From positions 1-33,095 of IMG/VR virus record IMGVR_UViG_3300032093_013277: 33,095 bases of DNA; one strand, given 5' to 3'. Both the position numbers and the translations under genes were made by a program. This DNA is from a virus. The notes beneath the pieces were generated by a model. The model made no database searches, was not told the origin of the DNA, and saw only the letters and a list, made by a program, of their open reading frames with translations. The number at the start of each line of letters is the position of its first letter. Within the stretch, counting starts at the first letter, position 1. Below are positions 8,054 through 32,843 of this stretch, in pieces.

Positions 8054-8353
8054 ATGGAAGAAATTAAAACATTTGAAAATTTTCTTAATGAAAGCTATAA
8101 TGAGGCTTATTTAGAAACTCTTAACGAAGAGATTGATGCAATGCTTTTTGAAGCTGCACCTCGTAGAAAATTTGCTGAAATTCAAAAAGATGCAGAAATG
8201 AAATTAAAAGAACAGTTAGAGAAATATACAGAGATGATTAAATCTAAGCCAGAAAAGGCTGATGTATATAAAGCTCAAATTGATCTAGTTAACGCTAAAA
8301 TGATGGTTCTTCAAGCAAAAGAACGCCTAGAAATGGTAAAAGCAAAAGCATAA
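8054..8353 (+). CDS. Small helical protein with capsid-targeting-like N-terminus
   Basis: A 99-residue, strongly helical, charged protein with Lys/Glu heptad-like spacing (about residues 40-95). Its start MEEIKTFENFLNES resembles the T4 capsid targeting sequence MKTYQEFIAEA of internal head proteins. That sequence is removed by the prohead protease after a hydrophobic-x-Glu site, here L-N-E before Ser. A second similar site (FEAAP near residue 32) is possible. It lies right after the tube gene, where T4-type genomes hold head and prohead-core genes, and is followed two bases later by another protein with the same type of N-terminus. Likely an internal head or prohead-core protein by inference; no known domain. 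Confidence 0.6.
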   Translation: MEEIKTFENFLNESYNEAYLETLNEEIDAMLFEAAPRRKFAEIQKDAEMKLKEQLEKYTEMIKSKPEKADVYKAQIDLVNAKMMVLQAKERLEMVKAKA

Positions 8354-8355
8354 AC

Positions 8356-8784
8356 ATGAAAAATTTATTAAATTTTGACGAATTTGTTAACGAATCTTTA
8401 TTAAATGAAAGAAGGATGGATCGAGACGAATTTGCTATTCTTTCTATAGGTACATTAAAAACTAAAACAGGAAAATCAAAGTTCTTTAATGTATATGATG
8501 AATGGGCAGGACAAGATAAAACTGTTGAGGTTTATAGAGAATCTCATCCTACACAAGGAATGATAAAACTTGTAATAACTGCAGGAACTTCACCGATAAG
8601 AAATAAAAACGGAAAGGATCCAGTTGAAGGAGATGTTCGACCTTTTGCTAACGATCAAACAGGAAGACCTATGTTTGTTGGAAAATACCTAGGATCCATT
8701 CAATTGAAAGATCTTAAATCAACAGATTTTTTTAGCAAATTAGGAATGAATTCAGATTCATTCGGAGCTTATGTTTACAAATAA
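8356..8784 (+). CDS. Protein with capsid-targeting-like N-terminus, unknown
   Basis: A 142-residue protein beginning MKNLLNFDEFVNESLLNERR. The first 14 residues match those of the preceding gene in pattern (F-x-x-F-[LV]-N-E-S) and resemble the T4 capsid targeting sequence. The rest is a compact alpha/beta sequence (FAILSIGTLKTKTGKSKFFNVYDEW, a Gly/Asn/Lys-rich turn, then MFVGKYLGSIQLKDL) with no motif I recognise. If the leader is cut after V-N-E, the mature protein of about 128 residues would be packaged in the head and possibly injected with the DNA. It is co-transcribed with the gene at 8054 and ends just before a strong double hairpin. Confidence 0.6.
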   Translation: MKNLLNFDEFVNESLLNERRMDRDEFAILSIGTLKTKTGKSKFFNVYDEWAGQDKTVEVYRESHPTQGMIKLVITAGTSPIRNKNGKDPVEGDVRPFANDQTGRPMFVGKYLGSIQLKDLKSTDFFSKLGMNSDSFGAYVYK

Positions 8785-8804
8785 AAAATTGGCTTAGGAC
8801 CAGT

Positions 8805-8820
8805 TATTGCTTCGGCAATA
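8805..8820 (+). other. UUCG-loop hairpin
   Basis: TATTGC and GCAATA form a 6-bp stem around a cUUCGg tetraloop, two bases before the main terminator stem. The pair of hairpins probably protects the 3' end of the upstream mRNA. Confidence 0.6.
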
Positions 8821-8821
8821 G

Positions 8822-8860
8822 AAACCTCAGTGATTCGCTATCGGCTGAGGTTTCGTTTTT
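8822..8860 (+). terminator. Intrinsic terminator before sugar operon
   Basis: AAACCTCAG (8822-8830) pairs perfectly with CTGAGGTTT (8845-8853). The loop can extend the stem through GAT/ATC, and the downstream arm runs into TTTCGTTTTT. This strong terminator separates the head-protein genes from the sugar operon. Confidence 0.85.
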
Positions 8861-9081
8861 GAATTAAAATACACATCTTACATATAAATAATAACAAGTA
8901 GGATTGCTTTAGATGATCCTAGATGTATCAAGAGGACACTTAATCTATTAAAGTTGGATATCTTTACTAAATAAATTGAATGAAACCCGGGTCATCAAGG
9001 GATCATATAACCATTAATGGTTGTTTAGGTAGAAAGGAAACAGTTATAGATGATACCTCCCATTGAAGTAAAGATTAGAGT
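8861..9081 (+). other. Long non-coding leader of sugar operon
   Basis: This region has no convincing gene. It starts with a TATAAATAA element (8883-8891), leaving a leader of about 190 bases before ATG 9082. It holds a 6-bp hairpin (TAGGAT 8899-8904 with ATCCTA 8916-8921), a 14-base perfect palindrome AACCATTAATGGTT, and a 28-codon ORF (8980-9066) in the same frame as the dehydratase but ended by TGA. It is less AT-rich in places (CCCGGG) than other spacers. No tRNA or known riboswitch is recognisable. Confidence 0.5.
8883..8891 (+). promoter_or_regulatory. Late-promoter-like TATAAATAA
   Basis: An exact match to the T4 late promoter core TATAAATA, located 22 bases after a strong terminator and before the sugar operon. 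Its position suggests the deoxysugar genes are expressed late. Confidence 0.5.
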
Positions 9082-10443
9082 ATGAAGCCAAGACAAGGAT
9101 TAAGATTCCTCCATTCACTAAATACAAGATCCATGAAAGATGGAGATATCCTTAAATGGATAGAAAAGAGAAGGAATGCTGTTAATTACAAAATCCGTAA
9201 AATCGATATAAGGAAACTGAAAGGTTGGACTTTTGATGAAAATGAAATTCGACATGATTCAGGTAAATTTTTTCAAATCAAATTCTTAAGATGTGAATTA
9301 AATGGTGAAAAATGGGATCAACCTATAATCAACCAACCAGAAATTGGTATATTAGGATTCATTACTAAAGAGATAAATGGAGTTTTACACTTCTTGGTTC
9401 AAGCAAAAATCGAACCAGGAAACATAAATATAGTTCAATTATCTCCAACTGTTCAATCAACAAAATCAAACTTCACAAAAGTTCATGGGGGTGCTTTAAC
9501 TCCTTTTGTTGATTATTTCCTAGATGGAAATTCTATCATATTGGTGGATCAATTACAATCGGAACAAGGAAGTAGATTTAATCAAAAAAGGAATCGTAAC
9601 ATCATAATTGAAACAAATGAAGATCTTAAGCATGAAAACTATATATGGCTAACATTAGGGGATTTAGTTTCTATGACTAAATATGCTAACACTGTAAATA
9701 TGGACAGTAGAACAATTATTAGCTGTATTCACTTTGGATCTTATGACTTTGAAAATTATGAAATAGCCTATTATATGGGATTGAATAATCAATCTCCGTG
9801 GTTAGATTCAATTATACGTAGAGATGTTTATCAACATTCCATTCCAGAAATCCTTTCAAAAATAACAGAATTCAAATTTCGTAGAGAATTCAGTAGAGAA
9901 ATAATTACTCTAGATCAATGTCAAGATTGGTCATATACGGATGGAATGATTAGACATAAAGATGAAAAATACTTCGACATAGTCGGTTACAATATCTTCA
10001 TTGAAAACAGAGAATCATCAGAATGGACACAACCTATGGTAAGACCTTCAGATGAAGGAATATGTTGTTTTTTTGCTAAAAAAATTGATGGAGTTTATCA
10101 TCTTCTTGTTCAATTCAAAGATGAAATCGGTTCATTCGATGGAGTTGAAATGGCACCAACTATACAAGCATCAGGAGAAAATTTAAGAAGCTCGATTCAC
10201 TACGATACATATAAAAAATTAATAAAAACTGATAAAGTCTTAATGAACATAATGCAATCGGAAGAAGGTGGTAGATTCTATAAAGAACAAAATCGTAATA
10301 TCATTATTGATGTTACAGATGAAGAGGTAACAGAAAATTGCAATTATTTTTGGATGACTGTTCATCAAATTAAAACTTTCTTACAATACAACAATTATGT
10401 TAATATACAGACTAGATCGATAATATCATCTTTACCATTATGA
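9082..10443 (+). CDS. NDP-hexose 2,3-dehydratase
   Basis: Removes water across C2-C3 of dTDP-4-keto-6-deoxyglucose to start 2-deoxysugar synthesis (the TylX3/EvaA/SpnO/KijB step). The 453-residue protein is an internal duplication, as in this family. Half one (about 38-215) and half two (about 270-453) repeat the same pattern: W-[ST]-[FY]-x-[DE]-G/E-x-I-R-H, F-[QD]-I-x-[FG]-, W-[DT]-Q-P, G-[IV]-x-x-F-x-x-K-x-x-[GD]-G-x-[LY]-H-[FL]-L-V-Q, [LM]-[AS]-P-T-[VI]-Q-[AS], QSE[QE]GGRF or QSEQGSRF, and NRNIII. The gene begins a tight operon: it overlaps the next gene by the four bases ATGA. Its product is unstable and needs a partner reductase or aminotransferase, both encoded directly downstream. The start at 9082 is the only upstream Met in frame after a TAG. 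Confidence 0.9.
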   Translation: MKPRQGLRFLHSLNTRSMKDGDILKWIEKRRNAVNYKIRKIDIRKLKGWTFDENEIRHDSGKFFQIKFLRCELNGEKWDQPIINQPEIGILGFITKEINGVLHFLVQAKIEPGNINIVQLSPTVQSTKSNFTKVHGGALTPFVDYFLDGNSIILVDQLQSEQGSRFNQKRNRNIIIETNEDLKHENYIWLTLGDLVSMTKYANTVNMDSRTIISCIHFGSYDFENYEIAYYMGLNNQSPWLDSIIRRDVYQHSIPEILSKITEFKFRREFSREIITLDQCQDWSYTDGMIRHKDEKYFDIVGYNIFIENRESSEWTQPMVRPSDEGICCFFAKKIDGVYHLLVQFKDEIGSFDGVEMAPTIQASGENLRSSIHYDTYKKLIKTDKVLMNIMQSEEGGRFYKEQNRNIIIDVTDEEVTENCNYFWMTVHQIKTFLQYNNYVNIQTRSIISSLPL

Positions 10444-11402
10444 AAATAGGCATACTAAACTGTTCCGATATAGCAAAACGTAGAATGATTCCTGCAATGA
10501 AATCGGTTGAAGGAATAAACATAACTATCGTATGTAGCCGAGACATTAAAAAAGCAAGGGAATTTGCTAAAGAATTTGGAATTCCTCAATATACAGACGA
10601 TCCAGATAGCATTAAAAATGTAGATGCTGTTTATATTTCATCTCCACCATCTGAACATTTCTTTCATGTAATGAAGTTTTTAGATAGAGGAATTAATGTT
10701 CTTTGTGAAAAATCACTAACAACATCAGATTCGCATACAGAAACAATAATCAAAGAAGCTGATAGGAATGGACTAATAGTTCAAGAAAATTATGGATTCA
10801 TTTTTCATGATCAATGGAAATGGATAACAAAAACACTTCCTGAATTAGGTGATATACTTTCTATAAATGCTGGATTCGAATTTCCTCCAAGGGACAAATC
10901 AACGGATTTCAGATACAACAAAGAACTTGGTGGAGGTGCACTATTAGATGCCGGAGGTTATCCTATTAAAGCTGCTTCTATGCTTATGAAAAAAATCAAT
11001 TTAGGAGAAATTTCAGGTTCACACAGACTTTCAGCAGAAGTTGAAGTAGATGTTTCTGGTAATGTTTATTTCCTCGATGAAAATGGAACAGCTGCTTATT
11101 TGACTTGGTCATTTGAATCTCCTTACAAATGCGAAATGGAAATTACAGGAAATAGAGGAAAAATAAAATCAAGAAAAATCTTTACTCCTAGACCTGATGA
11201 AACTGTTATAGTTGAAAGGACAGATGAATTCGGTAAAATAGTTGAAACTAAAGAATTCAAAACGGATCATTTTGTTGAATTGATAAAAGACTTCAAACGT
11301 AGAATTGATGAGAAAGATAATTCTCATCATAAAGAAATACTAAAACAATCAAATTGGCAATCATATGCAAAAACTACTAGTTTCAGAACCATCGTTAACT
11401 AA
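10440..11402 (+). CDS. Gfo/Idh/MocA oxidoreductase, probable sugar C-3 ketoreductase
   Basis: NAD(P)-dependent reductase expected to reduce the C3 keto group of the 3,4-diketo sugar made by the preceding dehydratase. The N-terminus IGILNCSDIAKRRMIPAM follows the signature G-V-L-G-C-A-D-I-A-x-R-R-x-x-P-A of KijD10/SpnN-type C-3 ketoreductases, with the usual third Gly replaced by Asn. The family motif appears as LCEKSL (Lys91, Ser in place of Pro), and the C-terminal beta domain starts with GGGALLDAGGYPIKAA (candidate catalytic Tyr174). At 320 residues the length is normal for the family. It overlaps the upstream gene by 4 bases and the downstream aminotransferase by 38, so translation is probably coupled. 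Sugar dehydrogenases of other types are less likely given the neighbours. Confidence 0.85.
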   Translation: MKIGILNCSDIAKRRMIPAMKSVEGINITIVCSRDIKKAREFAKEFGIPQYTDDPDSIKNVDAVYISSPPSEHFFHVMKFLDRGINVLCEKSLTTSDSHTETIIKEADRNGLIVQENYGFIFHDQWKWITKTLPELGDILSINAGFEFPPRDKSTDFRYNKELGGGALLDAGGYPIKAASMLMKKINLGEISGSHRLSAEVEVDVSGNVYFLDENGTAAYLTWSFESPYKCEMEITGNRGKIKSRKIFTPRPDETVIVERTDEFGKIVETKEFKTDHFVELIKDFKRRIDEKDNSHHKEILKQSNWQSYAKTTSFRTIVN

Positions 11403-12492
11403 TTTCGAAGAATTTACTCAGCTTGCAAAAGAAGTTTGGGAATCAGGTATATTAACACACAATGGACCTAAGGTTCAACAATTAGAAAATGAGCTTAAAG
11501 AAAAATGGTCAATACCACATCTTTCACTCGTAACAAATGGAACAATTGCTCTTGAAATTGCTATTAGAGCTCTTAATTTACCGAAAGGTTCAAGAATAAT
11601 CACAACACCTTTTACTTGGATAGCAACTGCTTCATCTATAGTTTGGCAACAACATACACCAATTTTTATTGATATTGATCCTAATACACTTAATATCGAT
11701 CCTATTAAAGTTGATGAATTCTTGAAGAATCGATTTACGATGTATCCTTCAGGATATCAACAATATGATGTTTCGGCAATTCTTGCAGTTCATGTTTTTT
11801 CGAACCCTTGTGATGTAAAAGCTCTCGATATTATAGCTGAAAAATACAAATTGAAAATTATCTATGATGGTGCACATGCAGTAAATGTTCATTATGAAGG
11901 TAAGGATCTTTCTCAATGGGGCCATATAACAACACATTCATATCATGCAACTAAGCTTTACAATTCAGGTGAAGGAGGTTCAATAATTACAACAGATCCT
12001 GAACTTGCAAAAAGAATCGAAAGACTTCGTTTCTTTGGGCATGATGAAAACAAAGACATTGTACACGAAGGAACAAATGGAAAAATGCATGAAATTTCTG
12101 CTTGTATAGGGTTAGCAAATCTTAAAATGATGGATAAATCTCAAGAACACAGAAAGGATCTTCAAACACAATACAAAAAACTTCTTGATGGATTGTCTGT
12201 TCGTTATCAAAGACATTCTGAATACAGTTACAATTACTCGTATTTCCCTGTTATATTTGAATCGGAAGAAATCGTTTTAGGTGTTATGAAGGCACTAGAA
12301 GAAATTGATGTAATAGCTCGTCGATATTTTTATCCTTCAGTAAATGAATTCAAAATCTTCAATCCTCAAGAATGTCCTATAAGTGAAGATATTTCAAGAA
12401 GGGTTATTTGTTTACCTTGTCACGATCGAGTAAAAGAAACTGATGTAAATCGTATTGTTTGGAAAATCCGTGATTACCTAGAAAATTGTTAA
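11365..12492 (+). CDS. DegT/DnrJ/EryC1-type PLP sugar aminotransferase
   Basis: Transfers an amino group from an amino acid (usually glutamate) to a keto-sugar nucleotide. The fold-type I signature is complete: TNGTIALEIAIRAL, ITTPFTWIATASSIVW, IYDGAHAVN (PLP-binding Asp168), YHATKLYNSGEGG (PLP Lys197) and RRYFYPSVNEF near the C-terminus. The start WESGILTHNGPKVQQLE is standard for the family, which supports ATG 11365 even though it overlaps the previous gene by 38 bases. After a 2,3-dehydratase and a C-3 ketoreductase, the free keto group is at C4, so a C-4 aminotransferase is favoured. A C-3 enzyme (EvaB-like) cannot be excluded. The stop codon lies inside the first element of the next promoter. 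Confidence 0.9.
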   Translation: MQKLLVSEPSLTNFEEFTQLAKEVWESGILTHNGPKVQQLENELKEKWSIPHLSLVTNGTIALEIAIRALNLPKGSRIITTPFTWIATASSIVWQQHTPIFIDIDPNTLNIDPIKVDEFLKNRFTMYPSGYQQYDVSAILAVHVFSNPCDVKALDIIAEKYKLKIIYDGAHAVNVHYEGKDLSQWGHITTHSYHATKLYNSGEGGSIITTDPELAKRIERLRFFGHDENKDIVHEGTNGKMHEISACIGLANLKMMDKSQEHRKDLQTQYKKLLDGLSVRYQRHSEYSYNYSYFPVIFESEEIVLGVMKALEEIDVIARRYFYPSVNEFKIFNPQECPISEDISRRVICLPCHDRVKETDVNRIVWKIRDYLENC

Positions 12493-16153: not shown

Positions 16154-16870
16154 ATGGAAAGAAAAGATACTCTATCTGTAATGCAACCTTATGCATTCCC
16201 ATATTTTGGGTATTTTTGTTTAATCAATTCGTCTGATCTTATAGTTTTTTATGATGATGTAAATTTCATAAAAGGAGGTTGGATAAATCGTAATCGAATA
16301 CTCAATAATGGTCAACCTGAATTATTCAATGTTTTCTTAAGTGGTGCTTCATCATTCAAACAAATTAAGGACACTATGCTTCTTAATGATTCGAATAAAA
16401 CTCAATTGACTCTAAACAAAATCAAATCAGCATATAAGAATGCACCGTTCTTTCAAAGAGCAAATCCTCATATTGAAAGAGTTTTTCTTGAAGAAACAGG
16501 TAGTATATCAGATTTTGCAATTCAAAGTATTAAAGCCGTTTATGATTATATCGGCTTAGAATTGAATTATGTTAAATCTTCCGAATCTTCACCTCATACC
16601 AAAGGTCTAAATCGAGTTGAAAGACTCGTAACAATGACCAAAGAATTCGGTTACAAAAACTACATCAATGTAATGGGCGGAAAAGACCTTTACAATAAAG
16701 AAGAATTTTCTCAATATGGAGTAAACCTCTACTTCAATAAACCTATCCTAACTCCTTACAATCAACAAAGCGAAGGAGATTTTCATCCTTACTTATCGAT
16801 TATAGATGTAATGATGTTTTGCTCTCCTGGAGAAATTAGGAAGATGATCCTCAATTACGAAACAATATAA
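16154..16870 (+). CDS. WbqC-family protein
   Basis: A 238-residue member of the WbqC family, recognised from LSVMQPYAFPYFGYFCLINS, VFYDDVNFIKGGWINRNRIL, a central KGLNRVERLVTM, NVMGGKDLY and the C-terminal YLSIIDVMMFCSPGEIRKMI. Members are found in O-antigen and amino-deoxysugar clusters and are thought to help build or modify amino-sugar nucleotides, but the reaction is not settled. Its presence fits the sugar operon 4 kb upstream, although the topoisomerase genes separate them. It is directly followed by a methyltransferase, and the two probably act on the same sugar. Family assignment is firm; substrate is inference. Confidence 0.85.
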   Translation: MERKDTLSVMQPYAFPYFGYFCLINSSDLIVFYDDVNFIKGGWINRNRILNNGQPELFNVFLSGASSFKQIKDTMLLNDSNKTQLTLNKIKSAYKNAPFFQRANPHIERVFLEETGSISDFAIQSIKAVYDYIGLELNYVKSSESSPHTKGLNRVERLVTMTKEFGYKNYINVMGGKDLYNKEEFSQYGVNLYFNKPILTPYNQQSEGDFHPYLSIIDVMMFCSPGEIRKMILNYETI

Positions 16871-16884
16871 AATAAATAAAAGCT

Positions 16885-17535
16885 ATGGCAAAATCAGAAT
16901 TTAAGCAAATGGTGGATGAAATAAGCAACAAAACCATTGAATTTTTTAAGGAACATGGAGATAACCATGCAGGAGTTGGTTGGTTCAAACCAAACGGATA
17001 TAACGAAAGATATGCTGCTCATTGTTCGGTTATTGATCAACCTGGAAGAGTTTTAGATTTCGGATGTGGTCTTGCAGGTCTATATGATTGGATGCAAAAT
17101 CACAAATATGGAGCATGTCAATATGTTGGATTGGACAATTCTCCTGAATATCTAGAAGCATGTAAGAAAAAATATCCTCATTTAGAATTCTTAAATGGTG
17201 ATATTCTTTCTGATGAAAATGCTTTTGGACAATTTGATTATATCATTATGTGTGGAATCTTTACTATGAAATTAGGTTACTCAAAAGAAATGATGTGGGA
17301 CTATACAAAGAAGATGTTAAAAGCAGTTTGGGAAAAAACCAATAATGGAATTTCTTTCAATTGTACATCCCCTTTTGTTGATTGGGAAAGAGAAGATTTG
17401 TACCATTTACCATTCGACCAAATACTTAAGTTTGTAAATGATGAACTTTCTAGAGATTTCGAAGTAAAAGCTCATTACGGTGGAACATATGAATATACGG
17501 TAATAGTTAGGAAAGAAAGACAGAAAGTATCCTAG
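16885..17535 (+). CDS. Class I SAM-dependent methyltransferase
   Basis: A 216-residue Rossmann-type methyltransferase. Motif I is RVLDFGCGLAGLYDW (residues 55-69), followed by the acidic loop YVGLDNSPEYLEACKKKYP that holds the SAM ribose, then the motif II-like FDYIIMCGIFTM. The acceptor-binding C-terminal part is not diagnostic. It sits 14 bases after the WbqC-family gene and ends before a structured spacer, so these two genes form a pair. In this setting N- or O-methylation of an amino-deoxysugar is the leading idea. Methylation of a small molecule or protein unrelated to the sugar remains possible. A base methyltransferase is unlikely because DPPY/NPPY-type motifs are absent. Confidence 0.8.
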   Translation: MAKSEFKQMVDEISNKTIEFFKEHGDNHAGVGWFKPNGYNERYAAHCSVIDQPGRVLDFGCGLAGLYDWMQNHKYGACQYVGLDNSPEYLEACKKKYPHLEFLNGDILSDENAFGQFDYIIMCGIFTMKLGYSKEMMWDYTKKMLKAVWEKTNNGISFNCTSPFVDWEREDLYHLPFDQILKFVNDELSRDFEVKAHYGGTYEYTVIVRKERQKVS

Positions 17536-27821: not shown

Positions 27822-28430
27822 ATGAAAAAAACAAAGCAAGAATCACTAAAAGACTTGGGAATCCGTTTCAAAGAAACGAAATCAGAAAAAGCATTCAACG
27901 ATTTATACAATCGTATTAGACCCGGATTATTCCATTATGTCAACAACATCCTAAAATCACCTGAAGAATCAGATCACGTCGTTTCAGCCGTTATGTCTAC
28001 CGTATACGATAAAATCGATACATACGATACAAAATGGCATATCTCCACATGGATTTATCGAATAGCTTATACCGCTGCTTGCATGGAATTAAGATATCGT
28101 GGACAAAGAAAAACTACTCCACTTTCTTATTTCGAAAACAGCGAAAATAAAAATTGGACTTCCAAAATAGAATATGATGCCATAGAAAATTTTGCAGATC
28201 ATTTAGTAGTTCAAGAAGAACAAAACGAACACAATGCAGAAATGCAAAAAGTTCGTAGAGTAATTTCTAAACTACCTGCAGAATACCGAGATGTCATTCA
28301 TGAAAAATTCTATAACGAACTTTCTTACGAAGATATTCACAAGAAATTGGATATTCCGATTCATACAGTAAAAAATAGAGTAGCTCGTGGAAAACGAATC
28401 TTCAAAGAAATTTATGAAAAGGAATCTTAA
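27822..28430 (+). CDS. ECF-type RNA polymerase sigma factor, likely late-gene sigma
   Basis: A 202-residue sigma factor with region 2 and region 4 only. Region 2 (about residues 20-100) shows AFNDLYNRIRPGLFHYVNNI and the core-binding and -10-recognising KWHISTWIYRIAYTAACMEL. Region 4 (about 140-198) shows ISKLPAEYRDVIHEKFYNELSYEDI and a helix-turn-helix HKKLDIPIHTVKNRVARGKRIF. It directs RNA polymerase to specific promoters. In T4 the analogous small sigma is gp55, which reads TATAAATA. Here TATAAATA-like motifs precede structural and sugar genes, so this protein is the best candidate to use them. It is itself behind early-type promoter copy 5. Ends 17 bases inside the next gene. Confidence 0.88.
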   Translation: MKKTKQESLKDLGIRFKETKSEKAFNDLYNRIRPGLFHYVNNILKSPEESDHVVSAVMSTVYDKIDTYDTKWHISTWIYRIAYTAACMELRYRGQRKTTPLSYFENSENKNWTSKIEYDAIENFADHLVVQEEQNEHNAEMQKVRRVISKLPAEYRDVIHEKFYNELSYEDIHKKLDIPIHTVKNRVARGKRIFKEIYEKES

Positions 28431-29394
28431 AAATGTTATCGTAACCGGTGGTGCTGGGTTTATTGGTTCTCACGTCGTAAAGACTCTTAATCGAGTCTTA
28501 CCGGAAACGAATGTTTATATAGTTGATTGTTTAACTTATGCCGGCAGCATGGAAAATGTTGCCGGTACTGAGTCTCATTTATTCTATATGGATATTCGAG
28601 ATAGAGATGTTCTAGAAAATCTTGAAGAATATGATATTGATGCTATTATTCATTTGGCTGCAGAATCTCATGTAGATAGATCAATAGAAGATCCTCTAGT
28701 TTTTGTTGAAACCAATGTTATAGGAACTGTTAATTTACTTGATCTAGGTCTCAAATATAAAAAGAAAAATCCAGACTTTATATTCTATCACATTTCAACC
28801 GACGAGGTATTTGGAACTTTAGGATTTGGTGATAAACCTTTTAATGAGGAAACTCCTTACGATCCACATTCACCTTATTCAGCAAGTAAAGCTTCATCCG
28901 ATCATTTTGTTCGTGCTTATGCAGATACTTATGGATTGAATACATTGATTTCAAATTGTTCGAATAACTACGGACCTAATCAATATCCAGAAAAGCTAAT
29001 TCCAGTTGTAATCAAATCTCTAATAGAAAGAAAACCTATTCCTATTTACGGTAAAGGTGAAAATATCAGGGATTGGTTATATGTTGAAGATCATGCTGAA
29101 GCTATTGTAGAAATCTTACAAAAAGGTCGTTTTGGTGAAACTTATTGTATCGGTGGCGATTGTGAACTTTCAAATCTAGACCTTGTAAAAAGGATCATTC
29201 TAAAATTTGATGAAATAGAAAAAACTTATTCAACAGATTTGATTAGTTTTGTTACTGATCGTCCTGGACATGATTTAAGATATGCAATAGATCATTCTAA
29301 ATTAACTAAGGAAATTGGATGGAAACCTCGATATTCATTGAATTATGGGTTAACCTCGACAGTTGAATGGTATATTAGGTATTTCAAGGAATGA
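28414..29394 (+). CDS. rfbB: dTDP-glucose 4,6-dehydratase
   Basis: Converts dTDP-glucose to dTDP-4-keto-6-deoxyglucose, the entry point to most deoxysugars. It is an extended short-chain dehydrogenase of 326 residues with VTGGAGFIGSH for NAD, HLAAESHVDRSIEDP, STDEVFGTLG (the Thr-Asp-Glu triad specific for this enzyme), YSASKASSDH (Tyr155, Lys159), NNYGPNQYPEKLIP and GKGENIRDWLYVEDHAEAI. ATG 28414 gives the correct N-terminus. A GTG nine codons upstream would deepen the overlap with the sigma gene. It would supply the substrate of the 2,3-dehydratase encoded 19 kb upstream. No thymidylyltransferase (RfbA) or epimerase (RfbC) is in the window, so dTDP-glucose must come from the host or from genes outside. 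Confidence 0.93.
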   Translation: MKRNLKNVIVTGGAGFIGSHVVKTLNRVLPETNVYIVDCLTYAGSMENVAGTESHLFYMDIRDRDVLENLEEYDIDAIIHLAAESHVDRSIEDPLVFVETNVIGTVNLLDLGLKYKKKNPDFIFYHISTDEVFGTLGFGDKPFNEETPYDPHSPYSASKASSDHFVRAYADTYGLNTLISNCSNNYGPNQYPEKLIPVVIKSLIERKPIPIYGKGENIRDWLYVEDHAEAIVEILQKGRFGETYCIGGDCELSNLDLVKRIILKFDEIEKTYSTDLISFVTDRPGHDLRYAIDHSKLTKEIGWKPRYSLNYGLTSTVEWYIRYFKE

Positions 29395-30207: not shown

Positions 30208-30929
30208 AAACAATAACAGGTAACAACGGTGGAAGATACTATGTTGTAAACGAACAAACAGGTCTTGCACTACCATCGGTGACTACAATTCTTGGTCACA
30301 CATCAGATAAATCCGGTTTAGAAGCTTGGGTAAAACGAGTCGGTCAAGCAGAAGCTGATAGAATATCACAATTTGCTGCAAATCGAGGAACATATATGCA
30401 TTCACTCCATGAACACTATTTGAATGCAAAATTCATTGAAGATTTACAAAATCCTCTACAAATTGCATTTCAACGAGCAAGGGAAGATTGTTCTTCTCTT
30501 TCCCTGGAAGAAATTGAATGCGGTAAAGATTTATTCTTACAATTCCATCACAATTCTGATTTTTATGAGGATATAGGTGAAGTAATTTTTCAAGAAGTTC
30601 CCGTTTGGTCATTAAAAGGTGGTGGATATGCAGGTAGATTAGATTTGGGTATACGTTCAAAATCCGGAATTCCAAAAATTATAGATTTCAAAACGAGCAG
30701 AAAACCAAAAAAACGAGAATGGATTGAAGGTTATTTCAAACAAGTTTCTGCTTATTCAGTAGGTATGTTTGAACAATATGGAATCTTTCCTGAACAATGT
30801 GAAATTTGGATCAGTTGTGAATCAGGAGAAGTTCAAAAATTTATTCTTACTCAAGAAGAAATCAAAACCTGGTTCAAAGAATTTCATAAAAATGTAGTAC
30901 AATATCATAAACAATTTACTCAAGTTTAA
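30204..30929 (+). CDS. PD-(D/E)XK nuclease (exonuclease type)
   Basis: A 241-residue nuclease with a RecB/lambda-exonuclease-like core. Key pieces are LPSVTTILG near the start, RGTYMHSLHEHYL (helix with conserved His), EVPVWSLKGGGYAGRLDLGI (Asp147), KIIDFKTSRKPKK (Asp161, Lys163) and FKQVSAYSVGMFEQYG (the Q-x-x-x-Y motif). This set is seen in phage and mitochondrial MGME1-like exonucleases, which degrade DNA ends in recombination or maturation. It starts at TTG 30204, overlapping the stop of the membrane-protein gene, and its stop overlaps the next ATG by one base. Tight coupling suggests an operon with the following glycosyltransferase. Confidence 0.85.
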   Translation: MKTITGNNGGRYYVVNEQTGLALPSVTTILGHTSDKSGLEAWVKRVGQAEADRISQFAANRGTYMHSLHEHYLNAKFIEDLQNPLQIAFQRAREDCSSLSLEEIECGKDLFLQFHHNSDFYEDIGEVIFQEVPVWSLKGGGYAGRLDLGIRSKSGIPKIIDFKTSRKPKKREWIEGYFKQVSAYSVGMFEQYGIFPEQCEIWISCESGEVQKFILTQEEIKTWFKEFHKNVVQYHKQFTQV

Positions 30930-31570
30930 TGAAATACACTATTGGTTATATTGATCATAATAAAGAAGTTTTTAATAGACTTTTAGGTCCAAGTATTAAA
31001 TCGCTAAAAGGTGAATTTTCTGTAATAAGTGTTGAATCAGATAAATTTCCTGCAGAAAATTACAATCGATTAGTTAGTATGGCTAAAACTCCATACATAA
31101 TTTTAACACATCAGGATGTAACATTCTCTTCAGATTTATTAGAAAGGATCGATTTAACCATCGATGCATTAGATGGTGAATTTGGTGCATTAGGAATGGT
31201 AGGTGTTGATAAATTAGGAAATTACCATTGGTCAGAACTAGATAGAATATATGAATTAGACACAGCAGATTGCTGTTTCTTAGTTATTAGAACTGATAAT
31301 GATATTAAATTTGACACAGAAAAGTTCGGTGATTATCACCTTTATGTCGAAGATTATTGTGCTCAATTGAATAGAATAAAAAAGAAATCAATATACACAA
31401 TATCAACTATCTCTAGAGAATCAGATCCTAATTTTTTTCTAACTGAATCAGAAGGAACTTTTCTTAATCATCATTCTTGTACAGTATCAACTCGAGGTTT
31501 TTGTTGGGGAAGATACCCAGAATTTCGTAAAAAGTTAAATGAAAAATGGCCAAATATAAAAACAACATAA
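30929..31570 (+). CDS. Glycosyltransferase, GT-A fold
   Basis: A 213-residue short glycosyltransferase-like protein. The N-terminal half resembles family 2 enzymes: AENYNRLVSMAKTPYIILTHQDVTFSSDLL with the metal/nucleotide-sugar-type HQDV at 61-64, then GALGMVGVDKLGNYHWSELDR, followed by ADCCFLVIRTDN and DYHLYVEDYCAQLNR, where the E-D pair is the usual catalytic-base position. It starts on the last base of the nuclease stop (TAATG). The next gene follows after three bases, so three genes to 32843 form an operon. Donor and acceptor are unknown, although the phage's own dTDP-amino sugar is one possibility. Confidence 0.75.
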   Translation: MKYTIGYIDHNKEVFNRLLGPSIKSLKGEFSVISVESDKFPAENYNRLVSMAKTPYIILTHQDVTFSSDLLERIDLTIDALDGEFGALGMVGVDKLGNYHWSELDRIYELDTADCCFLVIRTDNDIKFDTEKFGDYHLYVEDYCAQLNRIKKKSIYTISTISRESDPNFFLTESEGTFLNHHSCTVSTRGFCWGRYPEFRKKLNEKWPNIKTT

Positions 31571-31573
31571 CAT

Positions 31574-32125
31574 ATGGAAAATTACATACCGGAAAAAAGG
31601 GAAACTCCCGAATTAATGAGATCTATGCCTACTGCATGGGGAGATATTCCGACAATCTTAAAAGACATAATTGAAAGATTTGAAGTTGGAAACAAAAAAT
31701 GTATAGAGTTTGGAGTTGAATTCGGATATTCAACATCTGCTTTAGCTAATTATTTCGAAGAAGTAATAGGCATTGATACATTCGAAGGAGATGTACATGC
31801 TGGGATAAGAACAAATCATTTTCAGATGACATCAGAAAATCTTTCATCATTCCCTAATATAAAATTAGTAGAATCAACATACCAAGATTATTGCAAAGAG
31901 GATTCAAAAGAAAGATTTGATTTTGCACACGTCGATATTGTACACACATATGAAGATACTTTTTCTTGTGGAGATTGGTGTGTTGCTCGATCTAAAGTTA
32001 CGATATTCCATGATACCGAATCATATCCAGAAGTAAAAAGAGCTGTTACAGATTTAGCAAAGAAACATAATGCTAAATGTTACAATTATTTAGGATCATA
32101 TGGACTCGGAATAATAGTTAAATAA
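31574..32125 (+). CDS. Class I SAM methyltransferase (sugar-cluster type)
   Basis: A 183-residue Rossmann methyltransferase. Motif I is KKCIEFGVEFGYSTSALANYF with the acidic ribose-binding EVIGIDTFEGD. A later RFDFAHVDIVHTYEDTFSCGDWC is the D-x-x-H-x-Y-E region of the Methyltransf_24 family, whose members often methylate sugars or small molecules and use an Asp/His metal site. FHDTESYPEVKRAV near the end matches the family too. It lies between two glycosyltransferase genes, so methylation of a sugar or glycan is favoured. It is distinct in sequence from the methyltransferase at 16885. Confidence 0.78.
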   Translation: MENYIPEKRETPELMRSMPTAWGDIPTILKDIIERFEVGNKKCIEFGVEFGYSTSALANYFEEVIGIDTFEGDVHAGIRTNHFQMTSENLSSFPNIKLVESTYQDYCKEDSKERFDFAHVDIVHTYEDTFSCGDWCVARSKVTIFHDTESYPEVKRAVTDLAKKHNAKCYNYLGSYGLGIIVK

Positions 32126-32126
32126 A

Positions 32127-32843
32127 ATGAAACATATAGACGTTGTAATAATCAGTTGGGCAAAAGATGATGCTCTTCTTCAAGTAACAAAAGATGGATT
32201 GAATACACTTTTTGATTCAGAAGGGGATATAGCTTTTCATGCTTATATTGTTGAATCAAACAAAGATATTCGATATGAAGATATGGAAGAATATCAAAAA
32301 AAATGGATTCATTCAGTCCAAACAATTCATACAGATCTACCTTTTGGATATCATCGATACTTGAATTTAGGTAGACGTGCAGGAAATTCACCTTATGTTG
32401 TTCTTTGTAATTCAGATTTAACATACGAAAAAGGATGGGCAACAGAAATCTTAAAAGCAATGGAACATGATCCTGAATATCTTTCTGCTTCTCCTTGGTG
32501 TCCACAAACTCAAAAAGAGAATACACCATATAAAGATCATATATTCGAAGGGTATCGTGTTCGTGGAGAATTGGCTGGTTGGTGTATATTTCAACAACGT
32601 AAAATCTATGAAAAGATCGGTGAATTAGATGAACAATTTGAATTTTGGTATTGTGATAACGATTATTCTATACAATTAGAAACTAATAAAATAAAGCATT
32701 GTTTAGTTGCAAATTCGGTTGTTAATCACCATGATGGAAATTTAGGAAAAACAGGTTTAACTCTTTCTGATAGTGAACAATACAAAATAACTCAAGCTCA
32801 AGCAAATGTATTTGCTGCAAAATATAGATTGAACCTCAAATAA
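32127..32843 (+). CDS. Family 2 glycosyltransferase
   Basis: A 238-residue GT-A protein: DVVIISWAKDDALLQVTKDGLNTL at the start, GYHRYLNLGRRAGNSPYVVLCNSDLTYEKGW with the NSDL metal/nucleotide-sugar motif at 95-98, then AGWCIFQQRKIYEKIGELDEQFEFWYCDNDYSIQLE, the acceptor and catalytic-base region with E/D-rich loop, and VNHHDGN. This is the layout of rhamnosyl- and related transferases. It is one base after the methyltransferase stop. With the enzymes at 455 and 30929, this makes three glycosyltransferases in one window, which is many for a T4-like phage. Confidence 0.85.
   Translation: MKHIDVVIISWAKDDALLQVTKDGLNTLFDSEGDIAFHAYIVESNKDIRYEDMEEYQKKWIHSVQTIHTDLPFGYHRYLNLGRRAGNSPYVVLCNSDLTYEKGWATEILKAMEHDPEYLSASPWCPQTQKENTPYKDHIFEGYRVRGELAGWCIFQQRKIYEKIGELDEQFEFWYCDNDYSIQLETNKIKHCLVANSVVNHHDGNLGKTGLTLSDSEQYKITQAQANVFAAKYRLNLK

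Follow-up and report, generated by a model that had tools for sequence, protein, structure and literature searches.

The question raised by the viral record IMGVR_UViG_3300032093_013277 is which sugar a phage would make, and onto what it would place it. The record is a fragment of a larger virus, and its full 33,095 bases are referred to here as the window. Three overlapping genes on its plus strand had been assigned in an initial annotation to a nucleoside diphosphate (NDP)-hexose 2,3-dehydratase, a KijD10-like ketoreductase and a DegT aminotransferase. A dTDP-glucose 4,6-dehydratase gene, rfbB, lies further along the same strand (dTDP, deoxythymidine diphosphate). Read from their sequences, these genes probably (about 0.68) specify a phage nucleotide-sugar pathway to a dTDP-4-amino-2,4,6-trideoxyhexose that would be tailored and put on a glycan.

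Enzymes of the cassette

The three open reading frames (9082-10443, 10440-11402 and 11365-12492) were intact, lay on one strand and overlapped by 4 and 38 bases. All three products passed their Pfam cut-offs and RfbB passed TIGR01181, so the annotated families stood. The cassette is real, far beyond chance. Its flanks in the window are phage structural and topoisomerase genes, without polyketide or other antibiotic scaffold genes.

The first protein (453 residues) consists of two fused domains, matched twice in tandem by Hexose_dehydrat (PF03559) with 444 bits against a Pfam cut-off of 25; it thus lies inside the 2,3-dehydratase family, and the outcome that the initial annotation had named as refuting was absent. 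The nearest solved structure in a PDB sequence search was EvaA (4j7g, E 3e-88). Residues E139 and E190 of pocket A in EvaA are required for activity (PMC8987622). Their counterparts in the window dehydratase, by alignment, are E111 and E161, and both glutamates were kept in six of six phage copies examined. The enzyme therefore shares with EvaA, SpnO and TylX3 the two-domain family and both active-site glutamates of pocket A, but its identity to the copies on actinomycete plasmids is about 40%, and it is phage-borne, with no antibiotic genes nearby. It would presumably form a 3,4-diketo-2,6-dideoxy sugar from dTDP-4-keto-6-deoxyglucose.

The second protein (320 residues) matched GFO_IDH_MocA with 72.7 bits (Pfam cut-off 24), together with the C-terminal domain of the family. 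Its best PDB match was 3rbv (E 2e-39; next family member 9e-25), entitled 'Sugar 3-ketoreductase', which we take to be KijD10. The active-site residues of KijD10 were found as Lys91 and Tyr174, both conserved among the phage copies; the lysine is the residue altered in structure 3rcb, and the tyrosine presumably has an active-site role in KijD10-type reductases. KijD10 is thus the nearest solved protein and shares both residues, and the phage gene stands directly 3' of the dehydratase gene, but the kijanose pathway of KijD10 has further steps that are absent in the phage. The presumed activity is that of an NDP-3,4-diketo-2,6-dideoxyhexose 3-ketoreductase.

The third protein (375 residues), a DegT/DnrJ/EryC1 aminotransferase that presumably acts at C-4, matched PF01041 with 271 bits (cut-off 19.8). 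Its pyridoxal phosphate (PLP) lysine, Lys197 in an SYHATK motif, was invariant. The best PDB match was 2po3 (E 2e-39), entitled '4-dehydrase', which we assume to be DesI.

RfbB (28414-29394, plus strand) scored 400 bits with TIGR01181 against an equivalog cut-off of 365, matched RmlB in the PDB with E 3e-105, and contained the catalytic motifs TDE (STDE) and YxxxK (YSASK). The ATG at 28414 is in frame with a GTG at 28387, an alternative start. The claim of intact active sites in all four proteins was borne out, the published catalytic residues being present.

Proposed pathway

Host dTDP-glucose would be converted to dTDP-4-keto-6-deoxyglucose by RfbB, encoded either by the phage itself or by the host. 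Loss of the C-2 hydroxyl, catalysed by the EvaA-type enzyme, would then yield the 3,4-diketo-2,6-dideoxy sugar. Its C-3 would be reduced by the KijD10-like enzyme, and amination of C-4 by the DegT enzyme would lead to dTDP-4-amino-2,4,6-trideoxyhexose. In relatives the 4-amino group would then probably be N-acylated by a PglD/VioB-like enzyme; in the window phage, a WbqC-family protein and a methyltransferase may tailor the sugar. Glycosyltransferases would finally link it to a glycan, most likely of the host envelope or the virion. The product is deduced from what enzymes of these families are known to catalyse (4,6-dehydration, 2,3-dehydration, 3-ketoreduction and amination). The sequences establish family membership and catalytic residues; we infer the order of the reactions, the stereochemistry of the product and the acceptor.

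Distribution in phages and selection

The dehydratase was found in further, independent viral contigs, identical in L003, at 75-78% in L101, L102 and L109, at 69% in L004-L009 and at 64% in L108. Where flanks were present (window, L003, L102, L004-L007 and L009), the cassette was flanked by the tail tube gene on one side and by topoisomerase II on the other. PF03559 dehydratases occurred in 0 of 50,697 GenBank phage records, in agreement with the earlier statement that this exact set is not known from any described T4-like phage. The ratio of nonsynonymous to synonymous substitution rates (dN/dS) for the three cassette genes was 0.05-0.16 for the pair L006/L007 and 0.10-0.17 for the window compared with L102, with tail sheath (0.14-0.23) and topoisomerase (0.06-0.09) as comparison genes. 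The cassette is under strong purifying selection.

In contigs L226-L232 the same locus held the aminotransferase only, 51-54% identical. Three of these (L226, L231 and L232) carried an acyltransferase after topoisomerase II, 51-66% to the acyltransferase of L007, and a search of the 246 kb record to which L231 belongs found no PF03559. The aminotransferases of cassette phages and of aminotransferase-only phages formed one clade (98/100). The topoisomerase medium-subunit tree separated the cassette and aminotransferase-only groups (100/98); the large subunit did so with only 67/88. Because of the aminotransferase clade, the shared locus and the topoisomerase tree, the 4-amino branch, consisting of aminotransferase and acyltransferase, is taken as common to both lineages. 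Most simply, the dehydratase/reductase pair was gained or lost once in one of two sister lineages, and the tree gives no direction. The 2-deoxygenation is a lineage-specific step.

A far diverged dehydratase (40%) was seen inside a long sugar cluster of a 405 kb viral record (L112 6151-14927). Judged by N-terminal sequence, a DegT-like aminotransferase lies upstream of it and, probably, a Gfo/Idh reductase downstream. This second phage dehydratase is possibly a separate acquisition.

Bacterial relatives and origin

Bacterial dehydratase homologues were found by an alignment query against genome contigs; a single-protein query gave none. The loci were selected by similarity, and the locus counts that follow hold among the matches listed and are not frequencies. 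The best cellular dehydratase matches were from Bacteroidota (48% downward), with actinomycetes near 40%. The reductase stood directly 3' of the dehydratase in 70 of 80 bacterial loci, and the full three-gene order was present in 28. Bacteroidota sugar cassettes (Gramella L071, Prevotellaceae L047 and others) match the phage cassette in all three genes and in their order, and some have rfbB, PglD-like or WbqC genes next to them; the Gramella row reads rfbB, dehydratase, reductase, aminotransferase and PglD-like gene. They differ in being cellular, and their aminotransferases are 41-53% identical to the phage enzyme. No characterised product of these cassettes was found in searches that may have missed an earlier report of 4-amino-2,4,6-trideoxyhexose in Bacteroidota glycans, since names containing commas were unsearchable. 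PF03559 was present in 2 of 296 Bacteroidota genomes in an even draw, one of them the centre genome, chosen for having PF03559.

The kinship with actinomycete antibiotic-sugar clusters that the initial annotation had drawn did not hold, as the nearest cellular homologues and the gene order were mostly those of Bacteroidota sugar loci. Actinomycete dehydratases branched apart from the phage copies (98, quick tree), and an actinomycete donor was rejected. In the trees, the phage proteins of the cassette clade formed a group of their own, separate from the bacterial proteins and joined by a long stem; from its length the transfer is judged to be old.

Tailoring genes and glycosyltransferases

The earlier reading had overlooked candidate tailoring genes: WbqC and a methyltransferase in the window, an N-acyltransferase and a GT2 enzyme in sister phages. 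The WbqC-family gene (16154-16870, plus strand) matched PF08889 with 206 bits and was 71% in L102; in Prevotellaceae L047 a WbqC gene lies directly 3' of the dehydratase-reductase-aminotransferase row. A PDB search gave no solved relative of WbqC, and no useful paper on it was found. An S-adenosylmethionine-dependent methyltransferase (16885-17535, plus strand; Methyltransf_25, 43 bits), a candidate sugar N- or O-methyltransferase, adjoins WbqC in L102 as in the window and may act on the sugar.

Sister cassettes additionally carry an acyltransferase and a GT2. The acyltransferase was nearest to PglD (5e-24), VioB (3e-17) and PerB, a perosamine N-acetyltransferase (6e-11); the C-3 enzyme QdtC followed at 1e-9. 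In the window, candidate users of the sugar on the plus strand are a two-domain GT2 and GT25 glycosyltransferase beside the terminase gene (455-2053; PF00535 56 bits, PF01755 56 bits), a glycosyltransferase-like protein (30929-31570; PF13712, 32.6 bits) with no homologue in G001 or G002, and a GT2 glycosyltransferase (32127-32843; PF00535 30.8 bits, phrog_22332 glycosyltransferase). A methyltransferase gene (31574-32125, plus strand; PF13578, 32.5 bits) lies between the last two.

Further sugar genes were observed in G001: those for a protein resembling guanosine diphosphate (GDP)-mannose 4,6-dehydratase (GMD-like), a short-chain dehydrogenase/reductase (SDR) resembling, by eye, GDP-fucose synthase (Fcl-like), a GT11 and another DegT enzyme (L121 13043-16710; L125 5801-6778). 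The GMD-like and Fcl-like proteins are a candidate GDP-fucose pathway. A polysaccharide deacetylase gene stands beside the terminase gene of G001.

Other large phages assigned to Bacteroidetes are reported to carry genes for sugars and polysaccharides, among them a DegT aminotransferase, which have been read as cell-surface remodelling (PMC9723584). Those phages resemble the present ones in size and in sugar chemistry including the DegT enzyme; they differ in that the main text of that report names no dehydratase and that no bS21 gene was found in the contigs here. The sugar genes of the window and its relatives look like a glycan programme matching that idea (PMC9723584).

Weighing of alternatives

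Several points weigh against the proposed pathway. RfbB was absent from its locus in G001 and G002, sisters that keep the cassette, and in the window it lies 16 kb from the cassette and is not linked to it. No nucleotidylyltransferase (PF00483, RmlA-type) was found in eight related viral records, which are possibly incomplete. The cassette in the window is not adjoined by an acyltransferase or a glycosyltransferase. The best NCBIfam model of the aminotransferase, DesI (TIGR04427), gave 207 bits and missed the equivalog cut-off of 650, so that the enzyme is classed only as a DegT sugar aminotransferase, and the regiospecificity of DegT enzymes is not safely readable from sequence. Given the phage stem (0.99 in the dehydratase tree), the exact donor is not pinned down.

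The unbroken route from dTDP-glucose claimed in the initial annotation is therefore not a general one. RfbB occurred at its locus in the window and in L139/L140 (67%) only, between an extracytoplasmic function (ECF) sigma factor and a short gene followed by an exonuclease. As a conserved part of the cassette it was rejected, being missing at that locus in G001 and G002 though present in L139/L140. Five related records, possibly incomplete, gave no match above the 4,6-dehydratase cut-off. Cassette phages without RfbB would need that of the host, and, as PF00483 was not seen in the related viral records, dTDP-glucose itself must be host-derived.

The product could instead be a 3-amino-2,3,6-trideoxyhexose of the daunosamine or vancosamine type, if the DegT enzyme acted at C-3 of the diketo intermediate and C-4 were reduced by the Gfo/Idh enzyme. 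2,3-Dehydratases supply C-3 amination in the daunosamine and vancosamine pathways, DegT enzymes acting at C-3 exist, and one of them, QdtB, matched the window aminotransferase with E 3e-29. By pairwise and profile scores, however, the best matches of the aminotransferase were the C-4 enzymes DesI, LegC and PseC, the reductase resembles a C-3 ketoreductase, the acyltransferase of sister phages resembles C-4 amino acyltransferases, and in the sister lineage the aminotransferase persists where the dehydratase is missing, as would fit a C-4 enzyme on a 4-keto sugar. C-3 amination is thus rather unlikely, and C-4 amination is favoured because of the DesI, LegC and PseC matches and the acyltransferase of the sister cassettes. 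The enzyme is like DesI/VioA-type C-4 aminotransferases in family, PLP lysine, best profile match and the VioB/PglD-like acyltransferase partner in sister phages; it differs in falling under the DesI equivalog cut-off and in a substrate that would be a 2-deoxy sugar.

As to the acceptor, the set of glycosyltransferases, together with the other sugar pathways, favours a surface glycan of the host envelope or the virion. Placement on phage DNA, as a base hypermodification against host nucleases, appears unlikely. T4 relatives glycosylate DNA, and in G001 a divergent thymidylate-synthase-like protein, the second of its kind there, is encoded close to a kinase and an SDR sugar enzyme. Against this reading, some 130 kb separate that cluster from the cassette in G001, its ThyA-like protein is only a putative hydroxymethylase, and the probable GDP-fucose genes, GT11 and polysaccharide deacetylase of G001 suit a surface glycan. 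Also quite improbable is a 2,4,6-trideoxy-4-amino sugar put on the virus's own virion or DNA by a glycosyltransferase packaged in the head. In the sister-cassette GT2 (L007 13997-14875, L006 13999-14877, L108 11379-12263), about 35 residues at the N terminus form a conserved extension that is somewhat like a capsid-targeting sequence. As a proven capsid-targeted protein it was rejected, the profile of other N-termini giving E 0.6, background level. Its predicted structure had a mean predicted local distance difference test score (pLDDT) of 54.

That the cassette is a functionless passenger, recently and accidentally transferred from a host, is scarcely credible. Sugar genes do come and go at its locus, but purifying selection on it equals that on topoisomerase and tail sheath, its order and locus are conserved in several contigs with a long common history in phages, and its G+C content is similar to that of the remainder of the window.

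Phage type, host and neighbouring features

The window holds a T4-type terminase, a contractile tail sheath and topoisomerase II, and a gp21-type prohead protease was found above cut-off in relatives G001-G003, outside the window. The terminase was nearest to that of a 462 kb uncultured phage, then to other uncultured phages, Tenacibaculum phage PTm1 and Sphingomonas phage PAU. The phages that bear the cassette are members of a clade of large T4 relatives. A bS21 gene, which would link them to the published bS21 phage clades, was not found in the contigs here. Shine-Dalgarno-like motifs preceded 0 of 31 gene starts in the window, and 4% of starts in G001 against 10% of random sites; Bacteroidetes naturally lack Shine-Dalgarno sequences (PMC6847099). 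From this depletion and the kin of the terminase, the host is likely, though not certainly, a member of the Bacteroidota.

The leader of the cassette (8785-9081, plus strand) contains a terminator-like stem and a second conserved block, both conserved in L102 and L101. The second block has the stem AACCATTAATGGTT, altered on both sides in L102 (AACCAATATTGGTT). No Rfam match was obtained in the leader. Just upstream of the cassette, the genes at 8054-8353 and 8356-8784 have N-termini of the type MKxIxTFxxFLNE, like T4 capsid-targeting sequences. About 30 genes of G001 (L113-L125, 254 kb) have such N-termini (23 of 218 N-termini against 1 of 218 internal stretches), and these genes are predicted to encode a large set of internal head proteins. 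Between 5.4 and 10.5 kb of G001 (L113 5474-10535) lie the thymidylate-synthase-like protein, the kinase, the SDR and two family-less proteins, a candidate DNA hypermodification cluster. The ECF-type sigma-70 factor gene directly before RfbB (27822-28430) is conserved in relatives (54-70%).

Implications

Phage-borne nucleotide-sugar pathways were known already; as far as the searches reach, this chemistry in a phage is new. Elsewhere, sugars of this kind are known from antibiotic producers, to which the present analysis adds gene clusters for bacterial surface sugars. Because the dehydratase is rare even in Bacteroidota, the phage probably introduces a sugar beyond the synthetic capacity of its host. 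With the phage enzymes, dTDP-2,6-dideoxy amino sugars gain a source outside the actinomycetes, and the sister lineages with and without 2-deoxygenation at one locus offer a natural comparison for the role of a single hydroxyl.

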